Source: Bifidobacterium angulatum DSM 20098 = JCM 7096
GTDB lineage: Bacteria > Actinomycetota > Actinomycetes > Actinomycetales > Bifidobacteriaceae
Length of the DNA stretch: 64,000 nt
Assembly: GCF_001025155.1 (NCBI RefSeq)
Contig: NZ_AP012322.1
Span: 620,001 to 684,000 of the forward strand
Direction of reading: 5' to 3'
Shown: one piece after another, positions 20,124 to 37,828 of the stretch
Position numbering within the stretch: position 1 is the stretch's first letter
How the letters are laid out: every line of letters begins with the position of its first letter
Position numbers and translations under genes: made by a program
The notes under the pieces: model-generated
What the model was told of the DNA's origin: nothing
Database searches by the model: none
The model's input: the letters and a program-made list of their open reading frames with translations, nothing else

Positions 20124-22403
20124 TTAGAGTTCGAGTTCCCGTTCGTCCAGCGATGTCCGAACAATGGCCAGACGCTGGGTCGGACGGGTCATGGCCACAT
20201 AAAGGTCGGCCGCCGACACCAGACGACTCGGCGCCTCCTGATCGATGAGCGCCGGTTCAACCACTACAACGGCATCATATTCGAGACCCTTCACCGTTTC
20301 GGTATCGCTTACCATGATCTGGCAATCCCAGGAATCCTGGGCGCGCAGACGGCGGGCCTCCTCCGTGCCAAGCTCATGCTCCAGCCTGGCATATACACGG
20401 TCCTCCAATTGACCCAACAGCTGCTTCGGGCCGATAACGGCCACACGGCCGGTGCCGTCCTGGGCGACGAATTCGCCGGCGAACCGTGCGGTGGTATCGG
20501 CCACGGCGTCGAACAGCGCGTCCCGATCCTGCACGGTGATGCGCCGGACGGAATCCGGAATGCCACGCACGGCGTGCACGGTGGAGATGTACAGACCCTG
20601 CTTGGCAGCGAAATCGGAAGCGAGCTGGGAAACCTCCTGCGGATTGCGATAGTCGATGGTCAGCTCGTTCACATCCCAGTGCCCATGCCCGAACAGACGA
20701 TTCATGGTCTTCGCCCAGGAGCGTGTGCCGCCCAATGCCGATGTCTGCGCGACATCGCCCACGATGGTGAACGAACGAGACGGGCAGCGGCGCATCAGCA
20801 TACGCCAATCCATGGCGGTCAGCTCCTGAGCCTCATCCACCACGATATGTCCGTACGTCCATTCGCGATCGTTGGCCGCACGCTGGGCGGTGTCTTCGGG
20901 GGAGCTGCCGTTGATGTTGTCCAGCAGCATCTGCGAGGTGACGATGCCGTTGCCGATGCCGTTCTGGGCAAGCGTATCCTTGGCGAACTGGATTTCCTCG
21001 TCATGTTTCGCCTCGAGGCGCTTGCGGCGTGCCTCCACCTTCGGGTCCTCGCCCAGCAGCTGCATCGCCTCGTCCAGCAGGGCGATGTCGGAACGGGTCA
21101 GCGGCGCGCCCTTCTCGCGGGTCAGCGCCTTTACCTGCTCGTCGCTGAGCCACGGGGCGTAGCGACGCAGCTTATGCGGCTTGGAGAACATGTCGTCAAG
21201 CATCCATTGCGCGGTCATCGGCAGCCAAGCCAGATTCAACGCCACACGAACCTTGTCGTTCATGCGCAGCAGCGAGACCGTGCGATACAGCTCATCCTGG
21301 TCTGGCGTGTAGTCCAGCTGCTCCTCGTACCGCATGCGCATGGCGGACAGCATGGATTTGACAAAGGTCTCACGCGACTTGTTATGCGGTTGATGAGTGC
21401 GCTTGGCATCGCCGAGCGCCTGCTCGACGTCGGAAGGCAGCATGGGGACGTCGATGCCGTTGATGTGCACGACCGGCAGATTCGCGGGAACGCGCTCGCG
21501 GTCGGCCACCGCGTTGCGAATCGCTGCCACCATACGCCGGTCGCCCTTGATATAGGCGACCTGCGGCGTATCCACGGCGGTGACGACCACGCCGGGAATC
21601 AGATCGGCGATGGTACGGCTCACCACACCCGTCTCGCCAAGCGAAGGCAGTACCTGATCGATGTAATGCAGGAAGGCCGAGCTCGGGCCGACGACAAGCA
21701 CACCGGATCTGGAAAGCGTGCGGCGGTGCGTGTACAGCAGGTATGCGGCGCGATGCAATGCGACGGCGGTCTTACCGGTGCCCGGGCCGCCCTGCACCAC
21801 TACGGCACGATTGAGAGGCGAACGGATGATCGCGTCCTGCTCGCCTTGAATCGTGGCGACGATATCGGTCATCTTGCCGGTACGACGGGAACTGAGCGAA
21901 GCCAGCAAGGCGCCCTCGCCGGTAAGTGTTCCGGAGGTGGAGGCCTCGTCGACGGACTGTGAATGGATGTCCAGCACCTCATCCTCCAACGCCACCACGT
22001 CGCGCAGGTGCAAGGTGATGTGGCGTCGCATCACGATATCGCCATGATGCGACGGCGTTGCCTCATAGAACGGGCGGGCGGCCTCGGCTCGCCAATCGAT
22101 CAGCATGGGTGTGTGCTGTTCGTCGGTCAACCCGATGCGCCCGATGTACAGGCGGTCGTTCTTCGCGTTATCAAGACGCCCGAACACCAGGCGATCCTCC
22201 ACGCCGCGCAGCTGTATGAGACGATCCTCGTACATGGTGGCGAAGGAATCCCGTTCGGTGCGCTGTGTGGGCGAGCCGTGGGAACCGGCCGCCCTGACCA
22301 CATCAAGGCGCTGTTTCGTCTCCGCACGCAATGCGTCCAGACGATTGTAAGCGCGGGTGACCGCGCGCTGTTCTTCCTCAAGTTGCGAGGCATAGGTCGA
22401 CAT
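20124..22403 (-). CDS. HelD-like UvrD/Rep-family ATPase
   Basis: The 759-residue SF1 helicase-like protein has the N-terminal coiled-coil (MSTYASQLEEEQRAVTRAYN) of HelD proteins, which in Gram-positive bacteria bind RNA polymerase and release it from stalled DNA complexes. Walker A is VVQGGPGTGKTAVALHRAAY near residue 210; motif II is in HIVVDEAQELTAMDWRML; motif III is FTIVGDVAQTSALGG; motifs near the C-terminus are ELTIDYRNPQEVSQLA, VKGLEYDAVVVVEP and LYVAMTRPTQRLAI. It lacks the UvrD DNA-repair layout. It is read before serA in one transcript. The choice of HelD over a plain helicase rests on the N-terminal coil and overall length. Confidence 0.85.
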   Translation of the reverse strand: MSTYASQLEEEQRAVTRAYNRLDALRAETKQRLDVVRAAGSHGSPTQRTERDSFATMYEDRLIQLRGVEDRLVFGRLDNAKNDRLYIGRIGLTDEQHTPMLIDWRAEAARPFYEATPSHHGDIVMRRHITLHLRDVVALEDEVLDIHSQSVDEASTSGTLTGEGALLASLSSRRTGKMTDIVATIQGEQDAIIRSPLNRAVVVQGGPGTGKTAVALHRAAYLLYTHRRTLSRSGVLVVGPSSAFLHYIDQVLPSLGETGVVSRTIADLIPGVVVTAVDTPQVAYIKGDRRMVAAIRNAVADRERVPANLPVVHINGIDVPMLPSDVEQALGDAKRTHQPHNKSRETFVKSMLSAMRMRYEEQLDYTPDQDELYRTVSLLRMNDKVRVALNLAWLPMTAQWMLDDMFSKPHKLRRYAPWLSDEQVKALTREKGAPLTRSDIALLDEAMQLLGEDPKVEARRKRLEAKHDEEIQFAKDTLAQNGIGNGIVTSQMLLDNINGSSPEDTAQRAANDREWTYGHIVVDEAQELTAMDWRMLMRRCPSRSFTIVGDVAQTSALGGTRSWAKTMNRLFGHGHWDVNELTIDYRNPQEVSQLASDFAAKQGLYISTVHAVRGIPDSVRRITVQDRDALFDAVADTTARFAGEFVAQDGTGRVAVIGPKQLLGQLEDRVYARLEHELGTEEARRLRAQDSWDCQIMVSDTETVKGLEYDAVVVVEPALIDQEAPSRLVSAADLYVAMTRPTQRLAIVRTSLDERELEL

Positions 22404-22658
22404 CTGTTAGTTTCCGTCCCCTCACGATGCGTGAAAACTCAGACGTTCCAATGTACTCCGCCCCTCGGTCATTTTCACTGCCGGCAAGGCGGGACCACGA
22501 CAGGAACATCGCACGGTGCGCATGCGTCATATGGGGTTTCCTGCATATATATAAGGAATACGTAAGAGATTGGTCGCATACCGGTAACGCCGTCTACGGC
22601 AGGCGGAAACGGCAAGTGTGTCTTTTATGCGTCGAAATGTCCTAAAAGGGCAACACTG

Positions 22659-22693
22659 TGGGGAGGAATGGGGAGAGGTGGGGTAAAGTGGGG
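22659..22693 (+). promoter_or_regulatory. Four TGGGG boxes at 10-bp spacing, MraZ operator
   Basis: TGGGG occurs at 22659, 22669, 22679 and 22689, exactly one helical turn apart, with a degenerate TGCGT at 22699. MraZ of E. coli binds direct TGGGN repeats with 5-nt spacers upstream of its own gene, so this is very likely the autoregulatory operator of the dcw cluster, about 50-85 bp before the mraZ start. Confidence 0.85.
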
Positions 22694-22744
22694 CACAGTG
22701 CGTGAGTGAAACTATCCAATGTCGTTGTCAGGGAGGTGGGCGTA

Positions 22745-23251
22745 GTGGCTGAAGAATCAGTGGAGGCCACTCCGATCGCCCCTATGGCCGGCGAAACGGC
22801 GGCAGGGCTTCCGCCACTGCTGCTGGGTACGTACACTCCGAAAATCGACGCTAAAGGGCGAATGGCCCTGCCGGCGAAAATGCGCTCGCAGTTCGGTAAC
22901 GGCCTGGTCATGGCGCGTGGCCAGGAACATTGCGTGTACCTGCTGCCGGGAATGGAATTTCGCCGTATCGCCATGCAGATTCAACGGACATCGATGGTGA
23001 ACAAGGCCGCACGTGAATATCTGCGCGTGTTCCTATCCGGTGCCAGCGATCAGACGCCGGACAGGCAGGGGCGTGTGCTCGTGCCGCAGATACTGCGCGA
23101 TTATGCCGATCTTGGCGACGACATTGTAGTGATTGGTGTGGGAACGCGCGCTGAAATCTGGAATCGAAGGGCTTGGGAAGAATACTTGGCCAATACGGAA
23201 CAGAACTATGCGGATATTGCCGATGATGTGCTGCCGGAGGTGGAATTCTGA
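22745..23251 (+). CDS. mraZ: Transcriptional regulator MraZ
   Basis: The 168-residue protein has two tandem AbrB-like swapped-hairpin repeats: GTYTPKIDAKGRMALPAKM near residue 30 and DRQGRVLVPQILRDYADL near residue 105. MraZ forms a ring-shaped oligomer that binds repeat boxes before the dcw cluster. It carries about 25 extra residues (AEESVEATPIAPMAGETAAG) before the usual start LLLGTYTP. I chose GTG 22745 because GGGAGG lies 8 nt upstream; translation from 22706 is less likely. The stop overlaps the rsmH start (TGATG). Confidence 0.93.
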   Translation: MAEESVEATPIAPMAGETAAGLPPLLLGTYTPKIDAKGRMALPAKMRSQFGNGLVMARGQEHCVYLLPGMEFRRIAMQIQRTSMVNKAAREYLRVFLSGASDQTPDRQGRVLVPQILRDYADLGDDIVVIGVGTRAEIWNRRAWEEYLANTEQNYADIADDVLPEVEF

Positions 23252-24315
23252 TGACAATGGACAATCGTGACGTTTCCACCATCCATCAGCCGGTGCTGCT
23301 CGAAGACTGCGTTCGTCTGGTCACAGGCGGTCTATCGCGCAAACAGTCGCCGATCATAGTGGATTGCACGTTGGGGCTTGCCGGTCACGCCACCGCTTTC
23401 CTGAAGGCGGCACCGCAGGCGCGTCTGGTCGGCATCGACCGTGACGCCGAGGCTTTGGCGCTCGCCACGGAACGTATGAAAGCCGAAGGGCTTGCCGACA
23501 GGTTCATTCCCGTGCATGCGCCGTTCGACGAGTTCACCCGTGCCCTGGATGATAACGGCATTCACCATGTCGATGCCGCGTTCATGGATTTGGGATTGTC
23601 GAGTCTGCAGATCGACGAGACGGAACGTGGATTCTCCTACTCCCATGACGCTCCGCTGGACATGCGTATGGATGTCAGCCAGGCGTTGACAGCCGAACAG
23701 GTGCTGGCGGAATACGATGAACGGGATTTGGCCCGCATCTTCAAGGTGTATGGCGAGGAACGGTTCGCCCGACCCATCGCCCGTCGCATTGTGGCCCGTC
23801 GCACCCAGGAGGGGCCGCTTACCACGTCCGCCGAACTCAATGAGCTGGTCGATGAGGTGATTCCGAAGGCGCATCGCCCTGCCGGCAACCCGGCCAAGCG
23901 CGTATTCCAGGCGTTGCGCATCGAAGTGAACGGCGAACTCGACAAGCTTGCCGGCACGTTGCCGCAGATCGCGCTGAAACTGAATAAGGGCGGGCGCATC
24001 GTGGTCGAATCGTACCACTCGTTGGAGGATAAAACCGTCAAATCCTTTATGACTCAAGGGCTTACGGCTCGTGTGCCGGCGAATATGCCGATTGTGCCGC
24101 CCGAAGCCATGCCGTTCTTCAAGGAGTTGACCAGGGGCGCGGTCAAGGCCGATGAGCAGGAGATCGCAAGCAATCCGCGTTCGGCTTCCGTACGGTTGCG
24201 TGCCGTGGAACTCACCAGGCCGCTGCCTGAGGATATTCGTCATCAGTTCGTGGAACGGGTCGCGCTGCCAGGCAAGGCGTTGCGTGCCCGTCACGCTCAA
24301 GGGAAGGGCATCTGA
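23251..24315 (+). CDS. rsmH: 16S rRNA (cytosine(1402)-N4)-methyltransferase
   Basis: The 354-residue SAM-dependent enzyme methylates N4 of C1402 in the 16S rRNA decoding centre. Motifs are HQPVLLEDCVRLV at the start, VDCTLGLAGHATAFLKAAP (SAM site; the family usually reads GxGGH, here GLAGH), LVGIDRDAEAL, and FMDLGLSSLQIDETERGFSY, with RVFQALRIEVNGELDKL and RIVVESYHSLEDKTVK later. It overlaps mraZ and is followed after 1 bp by the FtsL gene, so all are one operon. Confidence 0.95.
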   Translation: MTMDNRDVSTIHQPVLLEDCVRLVTGGLSRKQSPIIVDCTLGLAGHATAFLKAAPQARLVGIDRDAEALALATERMKAEGLADRFIPVHAPFDEFTRALDDNGIHHVDAAFMDLGLSSLQIDETERGFSYSHDAPLDMRMDVSQALTAEQVLAEYDERDLARIFKVYGEERFARPIARRIVARRTQEGPLTTSAELNELVDEVIPKAHRPAGNPAKRVFQALRIEVNGELDKLAGTLPQIALKLNKGGRIVVESYHSLEDKTVKSFMTQGLTARVPANMPIVPPEAMPFFKELTRGAVKADEQEIASNPRSASVRLRAVELTRPLPEDIRHQFVERVALPGKALRARHAQGKGI

Positions 24316-24316
24316 G

Positions 24317-24772
24317 ATGGCCGCAGCACGTACGATTCGTTCCTCATCTGCCCCATCCACGAAGAAGGCGTCGCCTGACATCAGACCGGCAGCCCGACCT
24401 GAGCTTCGTGTCGTGCAGGGCGGCAAAAGCTCCGAGCAGGGCGCTGGCGCGAAACGCAGATTCGACCGCATCATCGCATGGGTCGGCAGTCGCAGGGCGC
24501 CAGCCATGCATGTGGTGGTGGCCGTGGTGTTTCTGGCCGCCACATTAGTCGCCGCCTTGTTGCTTCGTACGCAGATGGTGCAGAACTCCTTCGAATCCTC
24601 CAATCTGGAGGTTTCCATCAGTCATCTGACGCAGGACGTGCAGGACGATCAGGCCAAACTGAACCAGCTTCAAGCCTCATTGCCGCAGAAGGCGACCGAT
24701 ATGGGCATGGTTCCCCAGCAGGGGTCGGTATCGATCGATCTGAATGGCTATAAGAAGGGCGGTCAGCAGTAA
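24317..24772 (+). CDS. ftsL: FtsL-like division protein
   Basis: A 151-residue bitopic membrane protein: a basic cytoplasmic N-terminus of about 70 residues, one membrane segment (HVVVAVVFLAATLVAALLL), and an external part with a coiled-coil (SNLEVSISHLTQDVQDDQAK). The size, topology and place between rsmH and ftsI are those of FtsL, which joins FtsB and FtsQ to activate septal wall synthesis. Sequence identity in FtsL families is low, so the call rests mostly on position and topology. Its stop overlaps the ftsI start (TAATG). Confidence 0.8.
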   Translation: MAAARTIRSSSAPSTKKASPDIRPAARPELRVVQGGKSSEQGAGAKRRFDRIIAWVGSRRAPAMHVVVAVVFLAATLVAALLLRTQMVQNSFESSNLEVSISHLTQDVQDDQAKLNQLQASLPQKATDMGMVPQQGSVSIDLNGYKKGGQQ

Positions 24773-26586
24773 TGGCGCATCGTGTTCGCGACTGGTTTCG
24801 TGCTCGTGGCATCGACGCGTTTGCGGCCCGCTGCATAGCGGTCGGCATGATTCTGGTCATCGTGGCGTGCACATGCTTCGGCAAACTCATTCAGGTGCAA
24901 CTGCTCGACGGTCAGGCCACCGCCGAGGCTGCCACGAATTCGCGTACCTCCAAAGTGGTCGTCAGCGCCAAACGCGGCCGTATCCTCGCCTCCAACGGGA
25001 CCGTGCTCGCTCAGAGCGTGGAACGATACAACATCATCGGCGTTCCCGACGCAGCCACTTCGTTCACGCCGGTCGACTGCGGCACCAAACAGGCCAAGGC
25101 TTTAGGGTATTGCCATTCCATCGATGGAAAACCGGTCGGTGTGAGCGGTGCGGCGGCCGTTGCGCGTCTGCTCGCGCCGTTGCTGGACATGGATGCGATG
25201 GAACTGGGAGCCGATCTGAACGGCACCAACCAGTACGTGATTTTGAAAAAGGACGTTACGCCCCAGGTGAAGCGCGCCATCGACAAACTGAACCTCGGCG
25301 GCATCGTCTACGGCGAGTTGAGCAGCCAGCGCGTGTATGCGGAGAACACGTTGATCGGTGCGTTGCTCGGCGGCGTCAACGATGACGGCAGCGGCGCCTC
25401 CGGCCTTGAACTTACGCTGAACAAACAGCTCAGCGGCACCGACGGCTATACCGTGTACCAGCGCGGCAACGGCGGCGAGGTGATCCCCGGAACCGTCAGC
25501 AAGACCAAGGCGGCGCAGGACGGCAGCGACGTGACCCTTACCATCGACTCGGATGTGGACTGGTATGTCAAGAGGGTGCTGGCCGAAGGGGTCGCCTCCA
25601 GCCATGCCAAATGGGGCATTGCGGTGGTCGAGGACGCCCTTACCGGCGAGATTCTCGCCTTGGAGGACAGCGACGCCATCCAGGCGGGGTCCAGCGAGGC
25701 CAAAGCCAGCGCGTCGCGTGCCGTATCCCAGACCTTCGAACCCGGATCGATCGGTAAGGTGCCGGCTCTGGCCGCAATCCTGCAGAACGGTGTGCATAAG
25801 ATCGACGACCATTTCACCGTGCCCTACGAATACACGTCGGAAGGGCAGAAGTTCCATGACGCCATCTACCATCCGGACAAGCGGTGGACATTGGCTGGCA
25901 TTCTGCAGAACTCCTCGAATTCCGGCATGGTCATGGCGGCCGAGAAACTGACCAGCCAGCAGCGCTACGACATGCTCACCAAATTCGGCATAGGCCAGGC
26001 CACGGGGCTGAACCTTCCCGGTGAATCGCGCGGTGTGCTGGGCACGCCGAGCTCGTGGGACGGACGAACCAAAAACACCGTACTGTTCGGGCAGGGGTAC
26101 ACGGTGAACGCGCTTCAGCTCAGCCGAGTCGTCTCCGTCATCGCCAACAAAGGCGTGAACCGGCAGCAGTCGCTGATCAAATCCGTCACCGACAAGAACG
26201 GCAAGCCCGTAGACATGCTGAATCGTTCCGCCGCCAGGGTGCTGGATGAGAAGATCGCGAACCAGGTCAGGAACGCCATGGAATCGGCATTGGAGGAATA
26301 TAAGGGCGTGGCCGGCGTCAACGGGTATCGTGTGGCGGTCAAGTCGGGTACCGCCGAAGTGGTCGGAAGCGACGGCAGCCTCAGCTCGATCATCGCCGAT
26401 TTCGCCGGCATCATTCCCGCCAATGACCCAAGGTTCATCGTCACCGTGGTCATGCAGGATCCGGACGGTTCATACGGCGGCACCACGTCGGGTAAGCTGT
26501 TTGCGAAGATAGGTGAATTCCTTATGCAGAAGTACGATGTGCCGAATTCGCCGGCACGCACCGATGCTATTCCAGTGGAATGGTGA
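24772..26586 (+). CDS. ftsI: Septal peptidoglycan transpeptidase, class B PBP
   Basis: The 604-residue penicillin-binding protein crosslinks peptidoglycan at the septum. It has one N-terminal membrane segment (CIAVGMILVIVACTCFG), the class B pedestal motif RGRILASNGTVLA, and the transpeptidase motifs in order: SxxK as EPGSIGK (near residue 327), SxN as NSSNSGM, and KSG as AVKSGTAEVVG near residue 525. No PASTA repeats are present. It overlaps the FtsL gene by one base, and its partner SEDS polymerase FtsW is encoded at 31698. Confidence 0.95.
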   Translation: MAHRVRDWFRARGIDAFAARCIAVGMILVIVACTCFGKLIQVQLLDGQATAEAATNSRTSKVVVSAKRGRILASNGTVLAQSVERYNIIGVPDAATSFTPVDCGTKQAKALGYCHSIDGKPVGVSGAAAVARLLAPLLDMDAMELGADLNGTNQYVILKKDVTPQVKRAIDKLNLGGIVYGELSSQRVYAENTLIGALLGGVNDDGSGASGLELTLNKQLSGTDGYTVYQRGNGGEVIPGTVSKTKAAQDGSDVTLTIDSDVDWYVKRVLAEGVASSHAKWGIAVVEDALTGEILALEDSDAIQAGSSEAKASASRAVSQTFEPGSIGKVPALAAILQNGVHKIDDHFTVPYEYTSEGQKFHDAIYHPDKRWTLAGILQNSSNSGMVMAAEKLTSQQRYDMLTKFGIGQATGLNLPGESRGVLGTPSSWDGRTKNTVLFGQGYTVNALQLSRVVSVIANKGVNRQQSLIKSVTDKNGKPVDMLNRSAARVLDEKIANQVRNAMESALEEYKGVAGVNGYRVAVKSGTAEVVGSDGSLSSIIADFAGIIPANDPRFIVTVVMQDPDGSYGGTTSGKLFAKIGEFLMQKYDVPNSPARTDAIPVEW

Positions 26587-26616
26587 TGTGCTTGATGAGA
26601 ATCGGAAGGCCAGAAT

Positions 26617-27507
26617 ATGAGTGCGGTAAATGAGTCCATCATGCAACGGACCACGCTCGGGCAATTAGTGGAGCATTACGGTTGGGATCTTGTGCCCGCC
26701 TTCGCATCCGGCGTCACCATCACCTCGCTGGCAAACGATGTGGAATCGGTGACCCCGGGGGCGCTGGTGATCTTCGGCGACGACATCGATGCCGACAAGC
26801 TGCACCGAGCCCGAGCCCGAGGCGCCTACGCGGCACTGGTTCCCCCCTCCGCCAGAGAAAACCTGTTGACGGAAGCCGACCTGCCGGTGCTCTATGCCAA
26901 TCCCACACCGCAGCAGCTGGGATTGCTCACGTCGCGTATGGCGGGCAATCCCTCCTCCATGCTGGCGGTGTTCGCGGTCTGCGGCAGCACGGCACGGCAG
27001 AACGCCGCGGTCGTCACCCAGCTGACGCGTTTCCTGCATATGCTCGGCAACCCCGTGGGCATGCTGAGCGTAGCCGGATCGTATTCCCTGGAACGGGATC
27101 TGAATCTCAACTATCCGCTGAATATGCTTGACGTACAACGTTCCCTTGCGGTGTGCAGCGAGGACGGCGTTGCCGCGGTCGCGGTCTCGTTGGACGACCT
27201 TACCGTGGCGGCGCACGGCATGCAGGCCGTGAACGTGGACGTGCTCGGCTCCATGCAGCCGGTGCCTCCCAATGCGGATCAGGCGTTCATCGAACGCCTG
27301 CAGGACGAATACGGATTCAAAACCGAAAACCCCATCAAGGTGACGGTACGAACGTTGGAATCGGACGCGTTGGCGCGTCAGGCGGCCGGAACGCTCGATC
27401 AGGAGGACGAGCAGCGGCTGTCGCTTGCCATAGCCATGGTTCTGGCGGCCGGCGTGCACCGTACGAATATTCGCAGCGCCCTGCGCATGGCCAAGGAATT
27501 GCATTAG
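26617..27507 (+). CDS. MurE-like protein lacking P-loop and ligase domain (probable pseudo-enzyme)
   Basis: This 296-residue protein sits exactly where murE lies in the dcw cluster, between ftsI and murF. It aligns by eye with the first half of MurE: SLANDVESVTPGALVIF (usual DSRxVxPGDLF), RARGAYAAL, LPVLYANPTPQQLGLLTSRM then a P-loop position, and NYPLNMLDVQRSLAVCSEDG followed by VAAVAVSLDDLTVAAHGMQ, matching the TTPE-LQ...MEVSSHAL region of MurE. At the P-loop, where MurE has GTNGKTTT, it reads GSTARQNA (residues 123-130; 26983-27006), so the ATP-binding Lys and Thr are gone. The C-terminal amino-acid-binding domain is also absent; after about residue 210 the sequence is not MurE-like. It is intact, has GGAAGG with 7-nt spacing, and starts 30 bp after ftsI. 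It cannot be an active ligase; a structural or regulatory role is inference. A working MurE must lie elsewhere. Confidence 0.8.
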   Translation: MSAVNESIMQRTTLGQLVEHYGWDLVPAFASGVTITSLANDVESVTPGALVIFGDDIDADKLHRARARGAYAALVPPSARENLLTEADLPVLYANPTPQQLGLLTSRMAGNPSSMLAVFAVCGSTARQNAAVVTQLTRFLHMLGNPVGMLSVAGSYSLERDLNLNYPLNMLDVQRSLAVCSEDGVAAVAVSLDDLTVAAHGMQAVNVDVLGSMQPVPPNADQAFIERLQDEYGFKTENPIKVTVRTLESDALARQAAGTLDQEDEQRLSLAIAMVLAAGVHRTNIRSALRMAKELH

Positions 27508-27582
27508 GGCATGACTCGCCCTGCGCTATGAGCGGATTATGAGCCGATACAGACGAGAACACGGAAAGACGAGGATCTGAAA

Positions 27583-29061
27583 GTGACAAGCATGATGATG
27601 CCGATGACCATCGGCGAGGTGGCCGAGGCCGTTGCAGGCCGACTGGTGGAAGGTGCCAACGGCGTGCCCGAGGGGGCTGTTGCACTGCATGCCGTGAGCG
27701 ATTCGCGGCAAGTCGAGAACGGCAGCGTATTCGTGGCGATTCAGGGGGAGCGCGTCGACGGCCATGACTACGTGGCGTCGGTTGCGGACCAGGGCGCGGT
27801 CGCCGCGATTGTGGACCATGAGGTTCCGGGCGCCGCAGTGCCGCAGATCGTGGTGGACAACACCGTCACGGCATTGGGCGATCTGGCCAAGGCCAACATT
27901 GCGCGCCGTCGTGCCAGCGGCGAGCCGTTCACCATCATCGGCATCACCGGATCGGTAGGCAAAACCACCACCAAGGATCTGACCAAGGCCCTGCTCTCCA
28001 CGTTGGGGCCGACCGTGGCCCCGGTCGGATCGTTCAACAACGAGATCGGGCTGCCGCTTACCGCCTTGACGGTTGGCGAGCATACGCGCTATTTCGTAGC
28101 CGAAATGGGTGCGAATCATGTTGGCGAGATCGCGCATCTGACCACCATTGCACCTCCCGATATCGCAGTGGTGCTCAAAGTCGGTGTGGCGCACTTGGGG
28201 GAGTTCGGCTCCGTGGAGCGCATCGCGCAGGCCAAGACCGAAATCGTGCGCGGCCTGCTGCCCAACGGCATCGCCATGCTCAACACCGACGACGAGCATG
28301 TGGAGGCCATGTCGGCAGTGGCTCCGGGCGAAGTGCTGCGTTTCGGCATCGACGAGTCCAATGCCGGGCGGGATGCTCTGCATGCGTGCGACATCGTCAC
28401 CGACAGCTTCGACAGGGCGTCCTTCACCATGGTCGCCGGCGACGGCGAACAGTCACAGGTTGCTCTGGCGATTCCGGGCGCCCATAACGTGATGAACGCG
28501 TTAGCCGCCGCAATGGTGGCTCACCGGCTGGGCATGCCGTTGGAGGACATCGCCAGGGTGTTGGGGGAGCAGCGTCATATCAGCCCCCACCGTATGGCGG
28601 TCTCCACCGTCGAACGTGGCGGCGCGCGATTCACGTTGATCGACGACTCCTTCAACGCGAACCCCGATTCGATGCATGCCGGGTTGGATGGGCTTGCGCG
28701 CTGGTCCGAGGGGGCGCAGTACCGTGTGGCCGTGCTCGGCGCGATGCTCGAGCTTGGCGGCGACGAAAAACAGCTGCATCGTTCCATCGGCGCCTATGCG
28801 GCCGAACATGGCATCGACGAGGTAGTGGCCGTGGGCAGTCCAACCGATCAGGCGCTCGACGCCCTGGCAGGTGAGCTGGCGCAAGGCGCGAAGAACGCCG
28901 ATGGCGCCATGGCCGTGGAATGGGCGCATAGTGCCGCGCAGGCGGACGACATGATCGTGCGCATCGCCCGCGAACATGAAGGTACGGTGGTGCTGCTGAA
29001 AGGTTCGCACGCATCCGGCCTGAGCACGCTTGCCGAACGTTGGTCGGCAGACGAGAAATAA
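27583..29061 (+). CDS. murF: UDP-MurNAc-tripeptide--D-Ala-D-Ala ligase
   Basis: The 492-residue Mur ligase adds D-Ala-D-Ala to the UDP-muramoyl tripeptide, completing the soluble precursor. The N-terminal domain has DSRQVENGSVFVAIQGERVD, then the P-loop GITGSVGKTTTKDL near residue 125, NNEIGLPLT, and FVAEMGANHVGEIAHLT. The C-terminal half has GAHNVMNALAAAMVA and LIDDSFNANPDSMHAGL. The start GTG 27583 lies 7 nt after GAGGATC-like bases; ATGs at 27592-27598 are alternatives. In contrast to its upstream neighbour, all catalytic motifs are present. Confidence 0.95.
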   Translation: MTSMMMPMTIGEVAEAVAGRLVEGANGVPEGAVALHAVSDSRQVENGSVFVAIQGERVDGHDYVASVADQGAVAAIVDHEVPGAAVPQIVVDNTVTALGDLAKANIARRRASGEPFTIIGITGSVGKTTTKDLTKALLSTLGPTVAPVGSFNNEIGLPLTALTVGEHTRYFVAEMGANHVGEIAHLTTIAPPDIAVVLKVGVAHLGEFGSVERIAQAKTEIVRGLLPNGIAMLNTDDEHVEAMSAVAPGEVLRFGIDESNAGRDALHACDIVTDSFDRASFTMVAGDGEQSQVALAIPGAHNVMNALAAAMVAHRLGMPLEDIARVLGEQRHISPHRMAVSTVERGGARFTLIDDSFNANPDSMHAGLDGLARWSEGAQYRVAVLGAMLELGGDEKQLHRSIGAYAAEHGIDEVVAVGSPTDQALDALAGELAQGAKNADGAMAVEWAHSAAQADDMIVRIAREHEGTVVLLKGSHASGLSTLAERWSADEK

Positions 29062-29096
29062 CGCAATAGGAACATAGAGGGAAAAGAGACGTTTAC

Positions 29097-30203
29097 GTGA
29101 TCGCGCTCATCATTGGAATCCTGGTATCGTTCATCGTCACGATTGTGGGTACCCCACTGCTCATCCGACTGGTGCATCGCCTGCATTACGGTCAGTACAT
29201 TCGCCAGGACGGCCCGCAATCCCATCAGGTCAAGCGCGGCACGCCCACGCTTGGCGGTGTGGTCATCAACCTGGCTATCCTGCTCGGCTGGCTTGCCAGC
29301 GCGACCTATCGCTACTGCCGGAGCGGCGAAACGCCATCTCCTTCGGCGGTGCTGGTGTTGTTCGCCATGCTGTCCATGGGTCTGCTTGGGTTCATCGACG
29401 ATTTCGCCAAGGTGCGTAAAAAGCAGAGCGAGGGCCTGACCGTTCGCGGCAAATTCATCGGGCAGTTCATTCTCGCCACCATCTACGCGGTGCTGTCTTT
29501 GATGATCCCGACCAAATCCGGCTTCGCCAGTGCGCAGGCGGGCATCAGCTTCGTGGAAAAGCCGTTCATCAGTTTCGAATTCGCCGGTAGGGTGATCGCC
29601 ATTGTCCTGTTCGTCATTTGGGTGAACTTCCTGATGGCGGCGTGGAGCAATGCCGTCAACCTGACCGATGGGCTGGATGGTCTTGCTGCAGGCTCGTCCA
29701 TGATCGCCTTCGTCGGCTTCGCCGTCATCGCCTTCTGGGAAAGCTACCATCTGAAGGGAGCCGATCATGGCGGATTCGCCTATGCTGTTTCCGATCCGCT
29801 CGATCTGACCATCATCGCGGTATGCGCCGCGGTGGCCTGCCTTGGATTCCTGTGGTACAACACGAATCCCGCGTCGATCTTCATGGGCGACACCGGGTCC
29901 CTGGCATTGGGCGGCCTGTTCGCGGCACTGTCCATCGCCACGCACACCGAAGTGCTTGCCGTCATCCTTGGCGGCCTGTTCGTCATCGAGGCGATGAGCG
30001 ACGTGATCCAGGTGGGCTACTTCAAGATGACGCACAAGCGTGTATTCAAGATGGCTCCGATCCACCACCATTTCGAACTGTTGGGATGGCAGGAATCAAA
30101 GGTTGTTGTACGGTTCTGGATCATCGAATTGATATTCGTGGTGATCGCCCTGGTGCTGTTCTACGGTGACTGGGCCTCCAGGTCCGGCCTGCTGTTCGGC
30201 TGA
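29097..30203 (+). CDS. mraY: Phospho-MurNAc-pentapeptide translocase
   Basis: The 368-residue polytopic membrane enzyme moves phospho-MurNAc-pentapeptide to undecaprenyl phosphate, making lipid I. Typical blocks are YIRQDGPQSHQVKRGTPTLG (cytoplasmic loop), LGFIDDFAKVRKKQSEGL (the metal-binding DD pair), NAVNLTDGLDGLAAG, MGDTGSLALGGL, and KMAPIHHHFELLGW (the HHH motif). About ten hydrophobic segments are visible. The start is GTG 29097. It lies 35 bp after murF. Confidence 0.97.
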   Translation: MIALIIGILVSFIVTIVGTPLLIRLVHRLHYGQYIRQDGPQSHQVKRGTPTLGGVVINLAILLGWLASATYRYCRSGETPSPSAVLVLFAMLSMGLLGFIDDFAKVRKKQSEGLTVRGKFIGQFILATIYAVLSLMIPTKSGFASAQAGISFVEKPFISFEFAGRVIAIVLFVIWVNFLMAAWSNAVNLTDGLDGLAAGSSMIAFVGFAVIAFWESYHLKGADHGGFAYAVSDPLDLTIIAVCAAVACLGFLWYNTNPASIFMGDTGSLALGGLFAALSIATHTEVLAVILGGLFVIEAMSDVIQVGYFKMTHKRVFKMAPIHHHFELLGWQESKVVVRFWIIELIFVVIALVLFYGDWASRSGLLFG

Positions 30204-30256
30204 AACCGTTGAATAGCGCACGTATCAGGGGTATTTGAGTATTTGAAGGAGCGATA

Positions 30257-31711
30257 ATGGATTTCACCAATGCAACAGTGCTGATTGCCGGTCTCGGGGT
30301 TTCCGGCACCTCGCTGGCCGAAGTGCTTGCCGAGCGGGGAGCCCGCGTGATCGGCGTGGACGAGCGAAAGCCGACCGCCGACCTGCACTCCTTTGACGAG
30401 GTGAATTGGGACGAGATCGATTACGTGATGGCGTCGCCGGTGTTCAATCCCCGAACCCCGTTCATTCTCGAGGCAGCCAAGCGCGGCATCCCCGTGATGA
30501 GCGAAGTGGAATTCGCCTGGCAGCTGCGTGTGGCCAACGAACGTACCGGCAAGCCGGCGCCATGGATCGGCATCACCGGCACCAACGGCAAAACCTCCAC
30601 CACGGAGATGACCTCGGCCATGCTGAGCGCATGCGGGCTTGACGCTCCGACCGCGGGCAACATCGCCTCCGGCAACATGTCCATGAGCCTGTCGCGATGC
30701 GTCACCAATCCGAAGCATGACGCGCTGTGCGTGGAGCTGAGCTCCTTCCAGATGCATTTCACCGATTCGCTGGAACTCGACTGCGCCGCGATCACCAATA
30801 TCGCCGACGATCATCTTGACTGGCATGGCGGGCGCGAGAACTACGCCGCAGACAAGGCCAAGGTCTTCCATCGTGTGAAGCGTGCACTTGTATACAACGC
30901 CGACGATGCGGTGGTCACAGCCAAGGCGAATGAGGCCGAAACGGCGGAAGGTTGCCGTAGGATCGGCTTCACTCTTGGTGTTCCGCAAGCCGGGCAGATC
31001 GGTGTGGCCGACGGCTGGATCGTGGATATGAGCGGTGTGGCCTCGGGCGAGTTCGGCAAGCCGAATCGTCTTGCCCCTGTCGGCGAATTCACCCATCTGG
31101 CGGAGCCGGACGGCACCATCTACCCGCATCTGCTCGCCGACGCGCTGACCGCCCTTGCGCTGGCTTTGGGCCTTGGTGTGGATAGCGGCAAGGCGTTGGA
31201 GGCATTGAAGTCCTTCGCCCCCGGAGGCCATCGCATCGCCACCGTGGCCGCTACGGCACCCGATGAGCATGGCAACGTCATCCGCTTCGTGGACGATTCC
31301 AAAGCGACCAACGCCCATGCGGTGAAGGCGTCCATTTCCAGCTTCGCGCAGGGCAGCGTGGTATGGATCGCAGGCGGTCTTGCCAAGGGCAGCCGTTTCG
31401 AGGATCTGGTGGCGTCCCAATCCAAGGCGTTGAGAGGCGCGGTCATCATCGGCACCGATCAGGCGCCTATGCTTGAGGCGTTCGCCTCGCAGGCCCCGCA
31501 GATCCCATTGGCGGTCATCGACCCCTCGACCCCGAACGAACAGGTGATGGAACGTGCCGTGCAGGAGGCCGGTCGGATGGCTCAGCCTGGGGACGTGGTG
31601 CTCATGGCGCCGGCCTGCGCATCCTTCGACCAGTTCAAGTCGTATGCGGATCGTGGCGACAAATTCGCTCAGGCTGCGCAGCAGTGGGTGGTGGGTCGTG
31701 ACGCGCACTGA
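30257..31711 (+). CDS. murD: UDP-MurNAc-L-alanine--D-glutamate ligase
   Basis: The 484-residue ligase adds D-Glu to UDP-MurNAc-L-Ala. It starts with a Rossmann domain ([17 protein letters not shown]), then the P-loop [14 protein letters not shown] near residue 110, [14 protein letters not shown], and [12 protein letters not shown]. The C-terminal domain has [17 protein letters not shown] and [10 protein letters not shown], with [12 protein letters not shown] near the end. ATG 30257 is preceded by AAGGAG. It overlaps ftsW by 14 bp in another frame, which implies coupled translation. Confidence 0.96.
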
Positions 31712-32987
31712 ATCGTCAAAGCCCGAGCCGAAGCAATCACGTAGGGCGTCGTCCTCGGGCAAAGTGTCGCAGCATGCGGCACCGGTGGATTTCTTCGACT
31801 CGAATACGGCTAAGACGGGTGTCGACAATGCGAAACGCCAGGGCTTCGGTATCAACAGCCTGTTCAATCCGTTGTGGTGCTACCACGGATTCCGTATGGC
31901 GGTGCTGGGGCTGAGCGTATTCGGCGTCATCATGGTGTTCTCCAGTTCAGCGGTCACCGCGGCATCAGCCGGGAAATCACCCTTCGTCTCATCCATGAGC
32001 CAGGGCGTGTTCTGCGTGATCGGCCTGGCAACGGGCATATTCTGCTCGTTCGTGCCGGTGAACTGGTATCGTAAGCTCGGCTTTTTCGCGGTGCTTGGAT
32101 CGGGTCTTCTGCAGGCGTTGACGCTGTCGTCCCTAGGCGTGGGCCAATATGGCAACAACGGCTGGATCCAGCTCGGACCGGTTACCCTGCAGCCTGCCGA
32201 ATTCGTGAAATTCGCATTATGCATATGGCTGCCGTCGGCATTGTCCGTGGCGAACAAACGCTATAAGGACAAGGGCATCCTGGTATACATCCCCTCGGGC
32301 ATCGTATACATTGCGCTGCTGGTGCTGATTCTTGCCGGCAAGGATCTGGGCACGGCGCTTATCGTGGTGTTCATCGGTCTGGTGGCGTTCCTCACCTCGG
32401 GCTTCCCGGGCAAATGGATGCTCGGCATGATCGGCGGATTGGGGGCGGTGGTGCTGATGTTGGTCATGACGAGCCGCAATCGTCTTGACCGTATTCTTGC
32501 GGCATATTCGACCTGCTCCGCCGAGGACGCGCAAGGCATCTGCTATCAGTCCACGCATGCCCGCTACGCCATCGCATCCGGTGGGCTGTTCGGCGTCGGC
32601 CTGGGTAATTCCCGTGAAAAGTGGAATTATCTGCCTGCCGCGCATAACGATTTCATTTTCGCCATCATCGGCGAGGAGACCGGGTTCATCGGCGCGGCCA
32701 TGGTGATTCTGGTGTTCATGGTGCTCGGCTGGTGCCTGGTGTTCAGCGCGATACAGGTCAGGCAAAGCTACAGTTCGGTGGTGCTGATGTGCATCGCCAC
32801 ATGGCTTGTGGGGCAGGCCATGGTCAATATCGGCGTTGTGGTCGGCGTGTTCCCCGTGTTCGGCGTACCGATGCCATTCGTTTCGGCGGGTGGCTCGTCC
32901 ATGATCATGTGCCTGATGATATCCGGCGTGGCCATCAGCATGATGCGCCAGCAGCCGCAGGTCAAGGCCGCGTCGCAACGCGTTTAG
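31698..32987 (+). CDS. ftsW: SEDS peptidoglycan glycosyltransferase FtsW
   Basis: The 429-residue polytopic protein polymerises lipid II at the septum with FtsI. After a cytoplasmic tail of about 70 residues ([14 protein letters not shown]), there are ten hydrophobic segments. Family marks are [46 protein letters not shown], the large loop [38 protein letters not shown], and [15 protein letters not shown] chose GTG 31698, which overlaps the end of murD; longer frames read through murD in another frame. Confidence 0.94.
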
Positions 32988-33010
32988 TTCACGGACTATG
33001 CTCGGAGATT

Positions 33011-34183
33011 ATGAAAAAGATTGTTCTTGCGGGCGGTGGGACCGCCGGTCATGTCAACCCGTTGCTTGCTGTAGCCGACGCCATTGTCAGGCTTGATCCT
33101 GAGGCCAAGGTAAGTGCGCTTGGAACCGAGGTTGGCTTGGAGAAGGATCTTGTTCCAGCCGCGGGCTATGAGCTCGACACCATAGAAAAGGTGCCGTTCC
33201 CCAGGCGGCTTAACAAGGCGGCGTTCCAATTCCCTGCACGCTGGCGTAGGGAATGCGCCAAGACGCGTGCGATTCTGGAACGTCGCGAGGCCGATGTGGT
33301 CGTCGGATTCGGCGGCTATGCGTCGGCGCCGGCATATTCCGTGGCGCATACGATGGGCATCCCCGTGGTGATCCATGAACAGAACGCCCGCGCTGGCATG
33401 GCCAACAAACTGGGTGCCAGGTATGCCGATTTTGTCGGCACCGTATACGAGTCGACGGGGCTGAAAGTCGGCAAGCAAGGAACCATCGAACGGGTCGGCC
33501 TGCCATTGCGCCCCGTCATCGCCAAGCTGGCCGCCGAACTCGAATCCAATCGTGAACAGGCACGTGAGCGCGCAGCTCAGGAGCTCGGCGTTGATTCGAA
33601 GCGCCCGCTTGTGCTGGTGACCGGCGGTTCGCTGGGTGCGGTCAGCCTCAACCGGGCGGTGGCCGCGGCGTCCAAAGACATATTGTCCGTCGCACAGATC
33701 GTGCATCTGACCGGCCGCGGCAAGGCCGACGAGGTGCGCAATCTGGTGGAGGTGAACGCCGGCGAAGGGCATCTTGCCGGCATCGGACCGCAGTCCGCCG
33801 ACGAGGGCGATTATCATGTCGCCGAATATCTGGAGCGTATTGACCTGGCCTTCGCCTGCGCCGATCTGATCATCTGCCGGTCCGGTGCGGGAACCGTTGC
33901 GGAACTCACCGCGCTCGGCCTGCCCGCCGTATATGTGCCGCTTCCCATTGGCAATGGCGAGCAGCGATTCAACGCGCAGCCCGTAGTGGAAGCCGGCGGC
34001 GGCATGATGGTCGACGATGCCGAGCTGACCCCCGCATGGGTGCGTAAGCACATCCCCGCTCTGCTGAACGACACGGATGCGCTGCTGGCGATGGGCGGCA
34101 AAGCATGGGAGTACGGTATTCGTGACGCGGCCGATACCATGGCACGCCGCATTCTTGACTTGGCGGATCGCCATACCGTGTGA
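33011..34183 (+). CDS. murG: UDP-GlcNAc:lipid I GlcNAc transferase
   Basis: The 390-residue GT-B enzyme (GT28) adds GlcNAc to lipid I at the inner membrane face, forming lipid II. The G loop [18 protein letters not shown] begins at residue 7; [17 protein letters not shown] and [16 protein letters not shown] follow. The C-terminal domain has [15 protein letters not shown] and [20 protein letters not shown] for the donor. ATG 33011 follows GGAG. It starts 23 bp after ftsW. Confidence 0.97.
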
Positions 34184-34277
34184 ACCTACCGCATGAACCG
34201 TGGACTGCTCGCCTCGGGCGGGTGCGCCATGGTTCATAATGAAACACAGTCGAATCAATCCAACAAGGAGCGTTGTC

Positions 34278-35795
34278 GTGACTGCAACCATCACCCTTAC
34301 CCCTGCCACCGCAGCATTCGATGCCGATGAACGCATCGAGGTATTGGGACGTACTCATTTCATCGGCATCGGAGGCGCAGGCATGAGCGTTCTTGCCGAG
34401 ATGCTTCATGAACGAGGCGTTGCGGTCGACGGCTCCGATCGTGAGCGCAGCGCCAAAACCGATCGCCTGGAATCCCTGGGCATCACCGTGCAGTTCGGGC
34501 AGAAGGCCGAAAACGTGGACGATGCGGACACCGTCGTGTATTCCAGCGCCATCAAACCAAGCAATCCCGAAATCGTCGCAGCGGCCCAGCGTGGTGCCCG
34601 CATCGTGCATCGCAGCGATATCCTCGCACTGCTGATGAACGGGTGCCGTGCGGTAACCGTTGCCGGTGCGCATGGCAAGACCACGACCAGCTCGATGCTG
34701 TCGCATGTTCTCGTGCAGACAGGCAAGGACCCAAGCTATGCCATCGGCGGTTCCATCCAAGGCGCGGACGGTTCGACCCTTGACGGCGGCCACGTTGGCG
34801 CAGGCGACGTGCTGGTGGCCGAAGCCGACGAATCCGACGGTAGCTTCGACAAATACCGTCCACAGATCGCCATCATCACCAATTGCGAGGCCGATCATCT
34901 CGACCATTACGGCGACGAAGCCCATTACCGTGCCGCATTCGTGCGTCATGCAAGCCACGCGGTGGGCCATGTGGTGCTTTGCGCGGATGACGCCGATGCG
35001 CTCGCCGTGCTCGACGCCATGCCGGCTGAGGTGGCATCCAAGGCCGTGGCTTACGGAACCGCCGATCCGAACGGTTTGAACCTGAACGGTGCGGCCTACG
35101 TGCATATCGTGTCGGAACAGGAGAGCGCCGGAAGCGGCGTGGAACGGTTCACACTGCGTATGCCGGCCGGTATCGCAGGCGATCAGCCCCGTGATATTCC
35201 GGTGGAACTGTCCGTGCCGGGCGTCCATAACGCGCGTAATGCCGCCGCCGCACTCACCGCCGCCATGCTGCTGGGGGTCGATGCGGACGAAGCCGCCAAG
35301 TCCATCACCGGGTTCCTTGGCGCCGCGCGTCGTTTCCAGGTGCGTGGCACCGTCAAGCAGGTCACGGTGGTCGACGATTACGCGCATCATCCCACCGAGA
35401 TCGCGGCCCTGCTGGATGCGGCTCGCCGCCGCTACCCGGAAAGCACCATTCGTGTGCTGTTCCAACCGCACCTGTTCTCCCGTACGAAGTTCTTCGCCCA
35501 TGAGTTCGCCGAAGCGCTCGCCAAGGCCGACGATGTCATCGTCACCGGCGTGTTCCCCGCACGCGAGAAGCAGGAGGATTTCCCCGGAGTCGGCCCGCTG
35601 AGCATCGTGCGCGAGGCCAAGGGCATGCAGGGCGTCGAATTCAGCGCTCAGGAAGACATGCGTGTGGCGGCCCAGATGATGGTGATGCGTGCGCATCATG
35701 GCGATGTGATCTTCACCGTGGGCGCCGGCGACATCACCGACATGGGGCCGGTCATGCTGCATGCGCTGGAAGCGCACCGCGAAGGGTGTGAGTGA
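34278..35795 (+). CDS. murC: UDP-N-acetylmuramate--L-alanine ligase
   Basis: The 505-residue ligase adds L-Ala to UDP-MurNAc, the first peptide step. It starts with HFIGIGGAGMSVLAEMLHER, has the P-loop VAGAHGKTTTSSMLSHVL near residue 130, EADESDGSFDKYRPQIAIIT, and NARNAAAALTAAMLLG. VVDDYAHHPTEIAALLDAAR and RVLFQPHLFSRTKFF mark the C-terminal domain. Start GTG 34278 has AAGGAG with 7-nt spacing, so a frame opening at 34200 is rejected. Its stop overlaps the ftsQ start. Confidence 0.96.
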   Translation: MTATITLTPATAAFDADERIEVLGRTHFIGIGGAGMSVLAEMLHERGVAVDGSDRERSAKTDRLESLGITVQFGQKAENVDDADTVVYSSAIKPSNPEIVAAAQRGARIVHRSDILALLMNGCRAVTVAGAHGKTTTSSMLSHVLVQTGKDPSYAIGGSIQGADGSTLDGGHVGAGDVLVAEADESDGSFDKYRPQIAIITNCEADHLDHYGDEAHYRAAFVRHASHAVGHVVLCADDADALAVLDAMPAEVASKAVAYGTADPNGLNLNGAAYVHIVSEQESAGSGVERFTLRMPAGIAGDQPRDIPVELSVPGVHNARNAAAALTAAMLLGVDADEAAKSITGFLGAARRFQVRGTVKQVTVVDDYAHHPTEIAALLDAARRRYPESTIRVLFQPHLFSRTKFFAHEFAEALAKADDVIVTGVFPAREKQEDFPGVGPLSIVREAKGMQGVEFSAQEDMRVAAQMMVMRAHHGDVIFTVGAGDITDMGPVMLHALEAHREGCE

Positions 35796-37126
35796 TGACG
35801 GGAAGGGTGGTTCGCTCGGGCCCCGACCATCAGGGACGCAAGCCACGCACCCTTACGGGCAAGGAACGGCAAACCGCTAAGACGGAGAATGCCGCAAACG
35901 GCAGGCAACAGCCCAAGCATCCCATCAAGCCGAGCACCCGTACCCAGTTGCGCAGGGTCGGCGGCACCAAGCAGCGGTCGAACGCGAAATCCGGCGGCAA
36001 AGCGTCGAATGCGGGCGCGGCACGGAACGTCGCCGCGAAGGGCACTACGAGAAAAGCCGTAGCGTCGGCCGGAATCGTTCCCGGATCCGTAAGCAAACCG
36101 AGAAAACGCAGCCCATACAAGTCGGCGGCGAACGGCGGAACGTCAAGAAGCGCCCGGTCGTCAGGCGGCATAATGCCGTCAGGCCAGCGGCGTAGCGTTT
36201 CAGGCGGTGTCGCCAAACGTACGGTGGAATCGCATACCGGAACGGTGAACGGCCGGGCAAGCCGAAGCGAGCCAGGCTCCTTCGTCGATGCCAGAAAACT
36301 CGCCAGCGAAGATCTTGTCGCCAAGACGTTGCGGGAGAGCGCCGGCACATTCGGCATGGCAGCCCGACCGAAGGTCGTGGATTTCACCGCCAGGGCCAAG
36401 GAGCGCAAGCGGGTGAATGCGCGCATTATCATCGTGCGGATTCTTATCGCGTTGGTAAGCGTGCTCGCGGTGATCGGTCTCGGCTGGCTGCTGTTCTTCT
36501 CACCGGTGCTGAAGCTCAACGCCACACAGATCAGCGTTGACGGGCTTAACGGTTGGGTGTCCGAGGCGGAGGTGCGCAGCCTTGCCGTGGAACAGGTCGA
36601 CCGGTCGCTGCTATTGGTGGATACATCGAAGATCGCCTCGCAGGCCAAGGGCATCCCTGGCGTTTTCGATGCCAAAGTGTCGAGGGAATTCCCGCATGGG
36701 CTTGCCATATCGTTGACGACCCAGCGCCCGGCGGCCATGCTAAAGACCCCGAGCGGCACCGTTGCAGCGGTCGATGCGCAATACCGTGTGCTGAACGTCA
36801 TTTCGAAAAGCGACAGCGTGGGCATTCCCGTTATCGAAGTCGGCGATATCGAATCCAGTGTGAGGAACCGTTCCGTCAAGGAAGCGGTGAAGGTACTTGA
36901 CTCCCTGCCGGAGTCGATGCGCAGGCAGATCACCAAGGTGACTGCGAAAACCCAGGATTCGGTGACCACCGAGTTGAACGACGGCGAGCATTCCGTGGTG
37001 TGGGGCGATTCGTCGAATATCGAATTGAAGAAGGCGGATGTCGATAAGATTCTTTCCGATCCGAACGTGATCGGCGACAAGAAGCAGGTCGATGTGTCGT
37101 CGCCGTATCATCCGGTGCTGCGCTGA
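35795..37126 (+). CDS. ftsQ: Division protein FtsQ with a long basic cytoplasmic tail
   Basis: The 443-residue protein has about 205 cytoplasmic residues rich in Lys, Arg, Ser and Gly (KHPIKPSTRTQLRRVGGT and similar), then one membrane segment (IIIVRILIALVSVLAVIGL), and an external part with a POTRA domain (QISVDGLNGWVSEAEVRSLA) and FtsQ/DivIB region (FDAKVSREFPHGLAISLTTQ). The tail is much longer than in E. coli FtsQ (about 25 residues). It is the last gene of the dcw cluster here: ftsA and ftsZ do not follow. Start ATG 35795 overlaps the murC stop; GTG 35792 is an alternative. Confidence 0.88.
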   Translation: MTGRVVRSGPDHQGRKPRTLTGKERQTAKTENAANGRQQPKHPIKPSTRTQLRRVGGTKQRSNAKSGGKASNAGAARNVAAKGTTRKAVASAGIVPGSVSKPRKRSPYKSAANGGTSRSARSSGGIMPSGQRRSVSGGVAKRTVESHTGTVNGRASRSEPGSFVDARKLASEDLVAKTLRESAGTFGMAARPKVVDFTARAKERKRVNARIIIVRILIALVSVLAVIGLGWLLFFSPVLKLNATQISVDGLNGWVSEAEVRSLAVEQVDRSLLLVDTSKIASQAKGIPGVFDAKVSREFPHGLAISLTTQRPAAMLKTPSGTVAAVDAQYRVLNVISKSDSVGIPVIEVGDIESSVRNRSVKEAVKVLDSLPESMRRQITKVTAKTQDSVTTELNDGEHSVVWGDSSNIELKKADVDKILSDPNVIGDKKQVDVSSPYHPVLR

Positions 37127-37175
37127 ACCGTTGAACTGCCGAATCTGCCGGATGCGCCGTTATGCCTGCAGCGGA

Positions 37176-37204
37176 TTGCATGAGTCGCTGATCGGGTGTA
37201 CTCT
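37176..37204 (+). promoter_or_regulatory. Promoter of ssrA
   Basis: TTGCAT at 37176-37181 and TACTCT at 37199-37204 are 17 bp apart, which fits a sigma-70 promoter. Transcription would start near 37211, about 35 nt before the mature tmRNA 5' end. A small hairpin (TCCGGTT-CAC-AACCGGA, 37211-37227) lies in the leader that RNase P would remove. Confidence 0.6.
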
Positions 37205-37245
37205 AAAAAGTCCGGTTCACAACCGGAGCTTGATAATTCAAGATT

Positions 37246-37640
37246 GGGGCTGATCGGTTTCGACGGTGACCTGTTCGTCGCAGGGAAGCGTGCCGAGAAC
37301 GCAGGGTCCGCTCGCGATGCCCCCTGCAAAAGAATAAGTGCTAAATCTAACCGCACTGAGTTCGCTCTCGCTGCCTGAGCTTCGCGCCAGGATTAACCAG
37401 TGAGCAGCCGCTCCGTTCACTCCTCTTCGTCTTTGGGAGGATGCTGAGCGTCGTTTAGAAGACTTGCTCTACCAGTTGAGCCACAGGGCTGGTAGGGGAC
37501 TCGTACTGTAGATATGCTCGCCAACAGTTGTCTGCGACATCGTTGGGGGCAGAAAAATCGCCATCTTGGCCAGCAGACTACGCACGTAGAAGACTGAGGG
37601 TACGGTCATCGGACCGGGGTTCAATTCCCCGCAGCTCCAC
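37246..37640 (+). ncRNA. ssrA: Transfer-messenger RNA (tmRNA)
   Basis: The 5' end GGGGCTGATCGGTTTCGACGG and the 3' end with T arm GGGGTTCAATTCCCC and CAGCTCCA form the tRNA-like domain, with GGGGCTG pairing to CAGCTCC. The resume codon is GCT at 37340, and the tag reads AKSNRTEFALAA before the TGA at 37376-37378. This tag is, from memory, the bifidobacterial one. tmRNA rescues ribosomes stalled on broken mRNAs and marks the peptides for proteolysis. CCA is not encoded. Short protein-like frames across this gene are artefacts. Confidence 0.97.
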
Positions 37641-37646
37641 GAATGA

Positions 37647-37821: not shown

Positions 37822-37828
37822 TCGCACG

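Follow-up and report, generated by a model that had tools for sequence, protein, structure and literature searches.

A MurE-derived protein without the catalytic residues in the murE slot of Bifidobacteriaceae

MurE (TIGR01085; Mycobacterium tuberculosis structures 2wtz and 2xja) is the UDP-MurNAc-L-Ala-D-Glu:diamino acid ligase. In the 64,000-nucleotide stretch of Bifidobacterium angulatum DSM 20098 = JCM 7096 analysed here (the window), a protein termed psMurE is encoded in the division and cell wall (dcw) cluster. It shares with MurE the fold of domains 1 and 2 and the dcw place between ftsI and murF, but unlike MurE it has no P-loop, lacks the conserved Glu, Ser-Ser, Arg, His and Lys of domain 2 as well as domain 3, and is 296 amino acids (aa) long compared to about 500 aa.

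Other relatives of the Mur ligases have been described in larger assemblies. PAP11 (8r6s, 8r5o and 8qma) is a MurE-like subunit of the plant plastid-encoded RNA polymerase; in the accessible part of PMC4080259 its function is tabled as unknown and its mutants are described as having low polymerase activity. PAP11 was the second-best PDB profile match and a top Foldseek match of psMurE, but it is a plant plastid protein of 768 aa and psMurE shows no sign of RNA polymerase membership. The MurE-MurF fusion of Bordetella pertussis binds MurG according to the accessible part of PMC6420597, which supports Mur ligases forming assemblies. MurE and MurF are held together in such a fusion (structure 8f5d) and psMurE is coded directly before murF; however, the Bordetella fusion is one bifunctional polypeptide, whereas psMurE and MurF come from two genes and the MurE counterpart has no catalytic residues. 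MurT, the subject of PMC6085368 and PMC3267633, is a Mur ligase relative reused in another wall-modifying complex, but it pairs with GatD, and its likeness to psMurE is drawn from descriptions only. In the literature searched, which covered few subscription journals, a non-catalytic bifidobacterial MurE was the subject of none of the titles and abstracts found, and the accessible main text of a B. breve essential-gene paper (PMC5514069) held no word starting with 'mur' or 'fts'. Overall, psMurE would be a Mur ligase pseudoenzyme, a kind already known.

Relation to MurE and loss of active-site residues

Single-sequence searches with psMurE gave weak MurE signals only, with a TIGR01085 score of 21 bits that lies below the family line (curated cut-off of 257.3), so the relation was doubtful from these searches and profiles and structure were needed. 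One comparison of the psMurE alignment (85 sequences) with a profile of 42 MurEs showed a clear relation (hhalign E 5.5e-16, 268 columns). The best PDB profile matches were, in order, the MurE-MurF fusion 8f5d (1e-14), plant PAP11 (7e-11) and M. tuberculosis MurE (1.4e-10). The AlphaFold2 model of psMurE (pLDDT 91.3, pTM 0.88) had mycobacterial MurE and plant PAP11 as top matches with Foldseek and VIA-align. The structural match stopped at about chain residue 372 of M. tuberculosis MurE, with the Mur ligase fold of domains 1 and 2 present and domain 3 absent, and no Pfam match to the C-terminal ligase domain (PF02875) was found in psMurE.

Conserved columns were those with at least 90% conservation in the 42 MurEs, 30 from the order's other families and 12 from Bifidobacteriaceae, of which one (L082) is without its start. 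In the part common with psMurE, nine of 36 such columns were kept, all of them Gly, Ala, Pro or Leu, while 22 were substituted and five deleted; 22 more fall in the missing domain 3. The losses included the P-loop except for its first Gly, a Thr pair and invariant residues of domain 2. In the numbering of the MurE L132, E180, S182, S183, R190 and H208 of domain 2 were substituted and H212 and K222 deleted, the alignment being least certain at 202-222. The Glu, Ser-Ser, Arg, His and Lys of this domain presumably have catalytic roles in MurE. Among 23 outgroup-conserved positions of domain 1, psMurE keeps nine, with 12 substituted and two deleted, and Ser31 and His49-Gly50 are among those lost.

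The P-loop pattern G[TSAN]xGK[TS] was present in none of 141 psMurE sequences, which comprised 85 alignment rows (the window included) and 56 open reading frames (ORFs) from genomes, with species overlap between the two sets. A GK[ST] string was found in 13 of the 141, once also as a generic GxxxxGK[ST], and was located at about residues 72-81 or at 194 except in P0129, where GKS stands at the P-loop place and the rest of the motif is absent. The P-loop equivalent was nearly unchanged in the three closest relatives (proportion of nonsynonymous differences, pN, 0.000-0.029 over 16 codons) and hypervariable across the wider family. Other residues have become conserved. H141, G144 and N145 were invariant in the 85 aligned sequences, P146, S157, R160 and D183 were among further near-invariant residues, and H-x-[LIMV]-G-N-P occurred in 56 of 56 genome ORFs, including those of the small-genome genus g12 described below. 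Y71, H141, N145, P146, S155, S157, R160 and D183 were conserved in at least 95% of psMurE sequences and rare in MurE. As judged from sequence, psMurE would be without catalytic activity and can hardly be a synthase. The original prediction of a MurE-like gene without catalytic residues in the murE slot was confirmed.

Distribution, origin and selection

The survey covered 189 genomes of Bifidobacteriaceae. psMurE was matched in 177, including all 161 that are at least 90% complete and at most 5% contaminated, and the 12 genomes without a match were 57-89% complete. Some absences are real, since ftsI and murF are immediate neighbours without an intervening gene in G168 and G169 (genus g10) and in G188 (g16). 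In genus g4 the frame before murF encodes an acyltransferase in G010, while in G012 it is an unassigned frame of 454 aa that the psMurE profile does not match. The absence in G162 (g8), both relatives of which carry the gene, may be an assembly gap. In L095 and L097 (g10) a strong murE lies inverted within the dcw cluster between ftsW and murG, and likewise in L096 (g10), with only the ftsW side on the stretch.

The neighbourhood was read in 55 genomes: murF followed psMurE in every one, and the gene before it was ftsI in 51 and mraW in four, all of genus g12. Among the 30 best-scoring murE loci outside the family (from 119 genomes searched, nine of them within the family), ftsI preceded an intact murE in 28, and murF came next in 24 and mraY in five. 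This order indicates that the psMurE slot is the ancestral murE slot. Conservation across the family at one place with the same P-loop loss, raised earlier as a point to check, was found.

A further MurE, also expected elsewhere in the genome, was found as two tandem genes about 70 kb from psMurE and outside the window (G000:C1:716187-719346). Both scored just above the TIGR01085 cut-off and also above that of NF001129 (PRK00139.2-3), and the working MurE is presumed from these matches to be of NF001129 type and encoded outside the psMurE slot. At E<1e-95, a line set after the values were seen, an NF001129-type MurE was found in 174 of the 177 psMurE genomes, whereas the curated cut-off was passed by 115 of 189 genomes. 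The three psMurE genomes below the line (G091, G171 and G172) were 78-87% complete, G171 having a weaker match (3.7e-77). Among the 12 genomes without psMurE, an NF001129-type MurE was found in one (G162), eight had weak matches (1e-45 to 1e-63) and three had none. Both genes occurred together in 161 of 161 near-complete genomes, and this co-occurrence may be close to one evolutionary event rather than many.

A switch from diaminopimelate to Lys or Orn as the cause of MurE replacement was considered but is not claimed; DNPR is present in most outgroup MurEs, but the motif varies (DDPH in L119 and L132, several variants in the family MurEs). The region G000:C1:714153-719346 (L012:8154-13347, outside the window) carries the tandem MurEs followed by two more same-strand genes, one with weak matches to carbamoyl-phosphate-synthase-like models, which we take to be ATP-grasp, and one for an amino acid racemase (TIGR00035). 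It looks like a wall-chemistry island, and we assume that it could serve a D-Asp cross-bridge.

Vertical descent of psMurE from the dcw MurE is favoured because of the conserved slot and the profile scores, and would fit the following values. With the psMurE profile, 30 of 30 outgroup MurEs scored 26-63 bits, three NF001129-type MurEs of the family 13-21, nine MurEs of g4, g10 and g16 -1 to 31, and MurFs at most 20. In a tree of domains 1 and 2, built with 24 of the 85 psMurE rows and with psMurE columns positioned through the hhalign alignment, psMurE grouped with outgroup dcw MurE (support 96), a placement that the topology test given below does not settle. A phage origin was rejected (0 matches among 50,697 phage records).

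The Nei-Gojobori ratio of nonsynonymous to synonymous substitution rates (dN/dS) of psMurE was 0.078-0.123 over six pairs formed by the window and records of B. pongonis, B. merycicum and B. erythrocebi; some pairs had a dS of about 1, and comparisons between any two of the named records take in a few codons upstream of the start. The same comparison gave 0.096-0.182 for murF, 0.092-0.163 for ftsI and 0.154-0.260 for ftsQ; mraY was lower, at 0.036-0.070. The proportion of synonymous differences of psMurE was within its neighbours' range, so the constraint acts on the protein, and it was stronger in domain 2 (residues 137-211) than in domain 1. No internal stops were found among the psMurE matches listed. 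Hence psMurE is not a pseudogene and is under strong purifying selection, in line with the earlier view that it bears no sign of decay. Long low-complexity insertions that leave the frame unbroken occur in the psMurE of several genera, at places judged by eye (window numbering): residues ~55-62 in L046, L048 and L049, ~212-222 in L044, L053, L057 and L060, and the old P-loop place in L067.

Possible roles of psMurE

psMurE most likely acts by binding other proteins, because its fold is kept, selection is strong and its place among precursor genes is fixed while the catalytic residues are gone. It is tentatively read here as an adapter or scaffold, a structural part of the cytoplasmic machinery for wall precursors, descended from MurE and left in the murE slot, a reading that falls somewhat short of an even chance. 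A MurE of another subtype, with its gene elsewhere, would have taken over catalysis, and the old MurE would have stayed in its ancestral slot, with the domain 1 and 2 fold retained and the catalytic residues gone, to fill MurE's former place in a Mur complex. Candidate partners would be MurF, MurC/D, MurG/MraY and possibly the new MurE. A more specific form is unlikely: a foreign MurE subtype would have taken over catalysis, and the old MurE, now psMurE, would have become an obligate, family-wide non-catalytic Mur ligase subunit, an adapter through which MurF and the new MurE dock on MurG/MraY.

All seven genomes of genus g12 (0.6-0.9 Mb, six at least 94% complete) carry psMurE, and the cluster order in two stretches (G174 and G180) was mraW-psMurE-murF-mraY-murD-murG-murC. 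No match to ftsL, ftsI, ftsW or ftsQ was found in these two stretches, and their frames abut or overlap at mraW/psMurE and murD/murG, which leaves no room for ftsL/ftsI or ftsW. In L135 and L136 (g12) the dcw cluster is without these four genes and keeps murC, murD, murF, murG, mraY and mraW. The window's FtsI as query matched none of the seven whole genomes in a search that included no positive genome; with another program, the control gave at least 404 bits beside psMurE in each of 51 genomes. One SEDS protein was found in six of the seven and none in G176 (87% complete), compared to two each in five genomes of other genera, and the g12 SEDS protein adjoins a transpeptidase-domain protein whose frame is 479-561 aa long. 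FtsZ was matched in all seven, with fragmentary matches in G175 and G176. Loss of the FtsI/FtsW module has therefore left psMurE in place alongside the precursor genes.

Several points weigh against the structural-subunit reading. psMurE and murF may be neighbours simply because the operon order was inherited, and the Mur pathway can do without psMurE, as g4, g10 and g16 lack it. The approximately unbiased (AU) test rejected no alternative origin (p of 0.276 for psMurE with NF001129-type MurE, 0.509 with all family MurE and 0.073 with the g4/g10/g16 MurE), so that descent rests on synteny and profile scores. Finally, MurF was not singled out by mirror-trees of 48 loci, in which the distances of psMurE correlated at 0.931 with FtsI vs 0.857 with MurF (partial correlations 0.755 vs 0.376). 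These used 48 of 55 genomes, with the rows L031, L033 and L040 dropped and the four g12 genomes without ftsI left out; they speak against MurF as the special partner but are weak evidence in either direction.

Among the alternatives, the one that survives best, though still unlikely, is that psMurE is a dedicated partner (chaperone, activator or tether) that heterodimerises with the NF001129-type MurE and brings it to the pathway. Their near-perfect co-occurrence speaks for it, since 11 of the 12 genomes without psMurE also lack such a MurE. However, both genes are probably shared by descent, so that one evolutionary event may account for the association. Each of the four exceptions (G091, G171, G172 and the reverse case G162) is a genome of 76-87% completeness, the E line was set post hoc with the curated cut-off passed by only 115 of 189 genomes, and the genes lie about 70 kb apart in this genome.

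Somewhat less probable is a role in sensing or regulation, with UDP-MurNAc-peptide or a nucleotide bound but not turned over. The domain 1 fold is retained and the newly conserved polar H141, N145, S157, R160 and D183 could make an altered pocket, but the P-loop equivalent is hypervariable and 14 of the 23 domain 1 positions are substituted or deleted, which left the UDP-MurNAc-peptide binding first proposed less supported.

A divisome component working with FtsI, FtsL or FtsW has a slimmer chance again. The position after ftsI and the best distance correlation, with FtsI rather than MurF, agree with this earlier suggestion, which is weakened by g12, where psMurE remains with no detectable ftsI, no cluster ftsL, ftsW or ftsQ, and a single SEDS protein in most genomes.

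That the fold has gained a new catalytic activity at a different site is very improbable: the residue set conserved in psMurE and rare in MurE would suit it, but no recognised catalytic motif was found, and strand order in the model would place H141-P146 and E182-G184 at helix ends or strand starts opposite the old ATP site. A decaying relic kept by chance or as an ftsI-murF spacer can be practically dismissed, as the large divergence (identity down to 26-28% in distant genera) is set against a dN/dS of 0.08-0.12 that contradicts decay at the protein level, the lack of internal stops among the matches listed and retention in genomes of 0.6-0.9 Mb.

Locus features and significance

The features of the locus are as in Table 1. 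The spacing is 30 bases from ftsI to psMurE and 75 bases from psMurE to murF. An antisense open frame of 279 aa (26665-27504, minus strand) lies over psMurE and is probably a composition effect; neighbouring genes carry similar shadow frames. A transfer-messenger RNA (tmRNA) gene at 37246-37642 (plus strand), just past the dcw cluster, was the only RNA element found in 22000-38000.

Table 1. Positions of psMurE, its parts and its neighbours in the window.
Feature	Position	Strand	Basis or remark
psMurE (non-catalytic MurE-derived protein), 296 aa	26617..27507	+	intact ORF
ftsI, neighbour upstream	24772..26586	+	precedes in 51/55 genomes read
murF, neighbour downstream	27583..29061	+	follows in 55/55 genomes read
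Equivalent of MurE domain 1 (UDP-substrate domain), residues ~12-116	26650..26964	+	conserved-position comparison with outgroup MurE
P-loop equivalent GSTARQNA, residues 123-130	26983..27006	+	
Newly conserved motif L-H-M-L-G-N-P-V, residues 140-147	27034..27057	+	
Conserved E-D-G, residues 182-184, past second helix of domain 2	27160..27168	+	
Last helices of MurE domain 2, retained (LSLAIAMVLAAGV..NIRSAL), residues 268-296	27418..27504	+	profile and model

Public entries name psMurE 'UDP-N-acetylmuramyl peptide synthase', give a similar synthetase name or call it hypothetical, and these annotations are corrected here. It is still debatable whether the Mur enzymes of the cytoplasm form a working complex, because taking away a Mur ligase abolishes its reaction as well. 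A MurE that has lost the catalytic residues and is yet conserved beside murF would split the structural from the chemical role, in genetically tractable commensals. If true, the docking-adapter reading would for the first time open to genetics a Mur-ligase complex that does not depend on the divisome.
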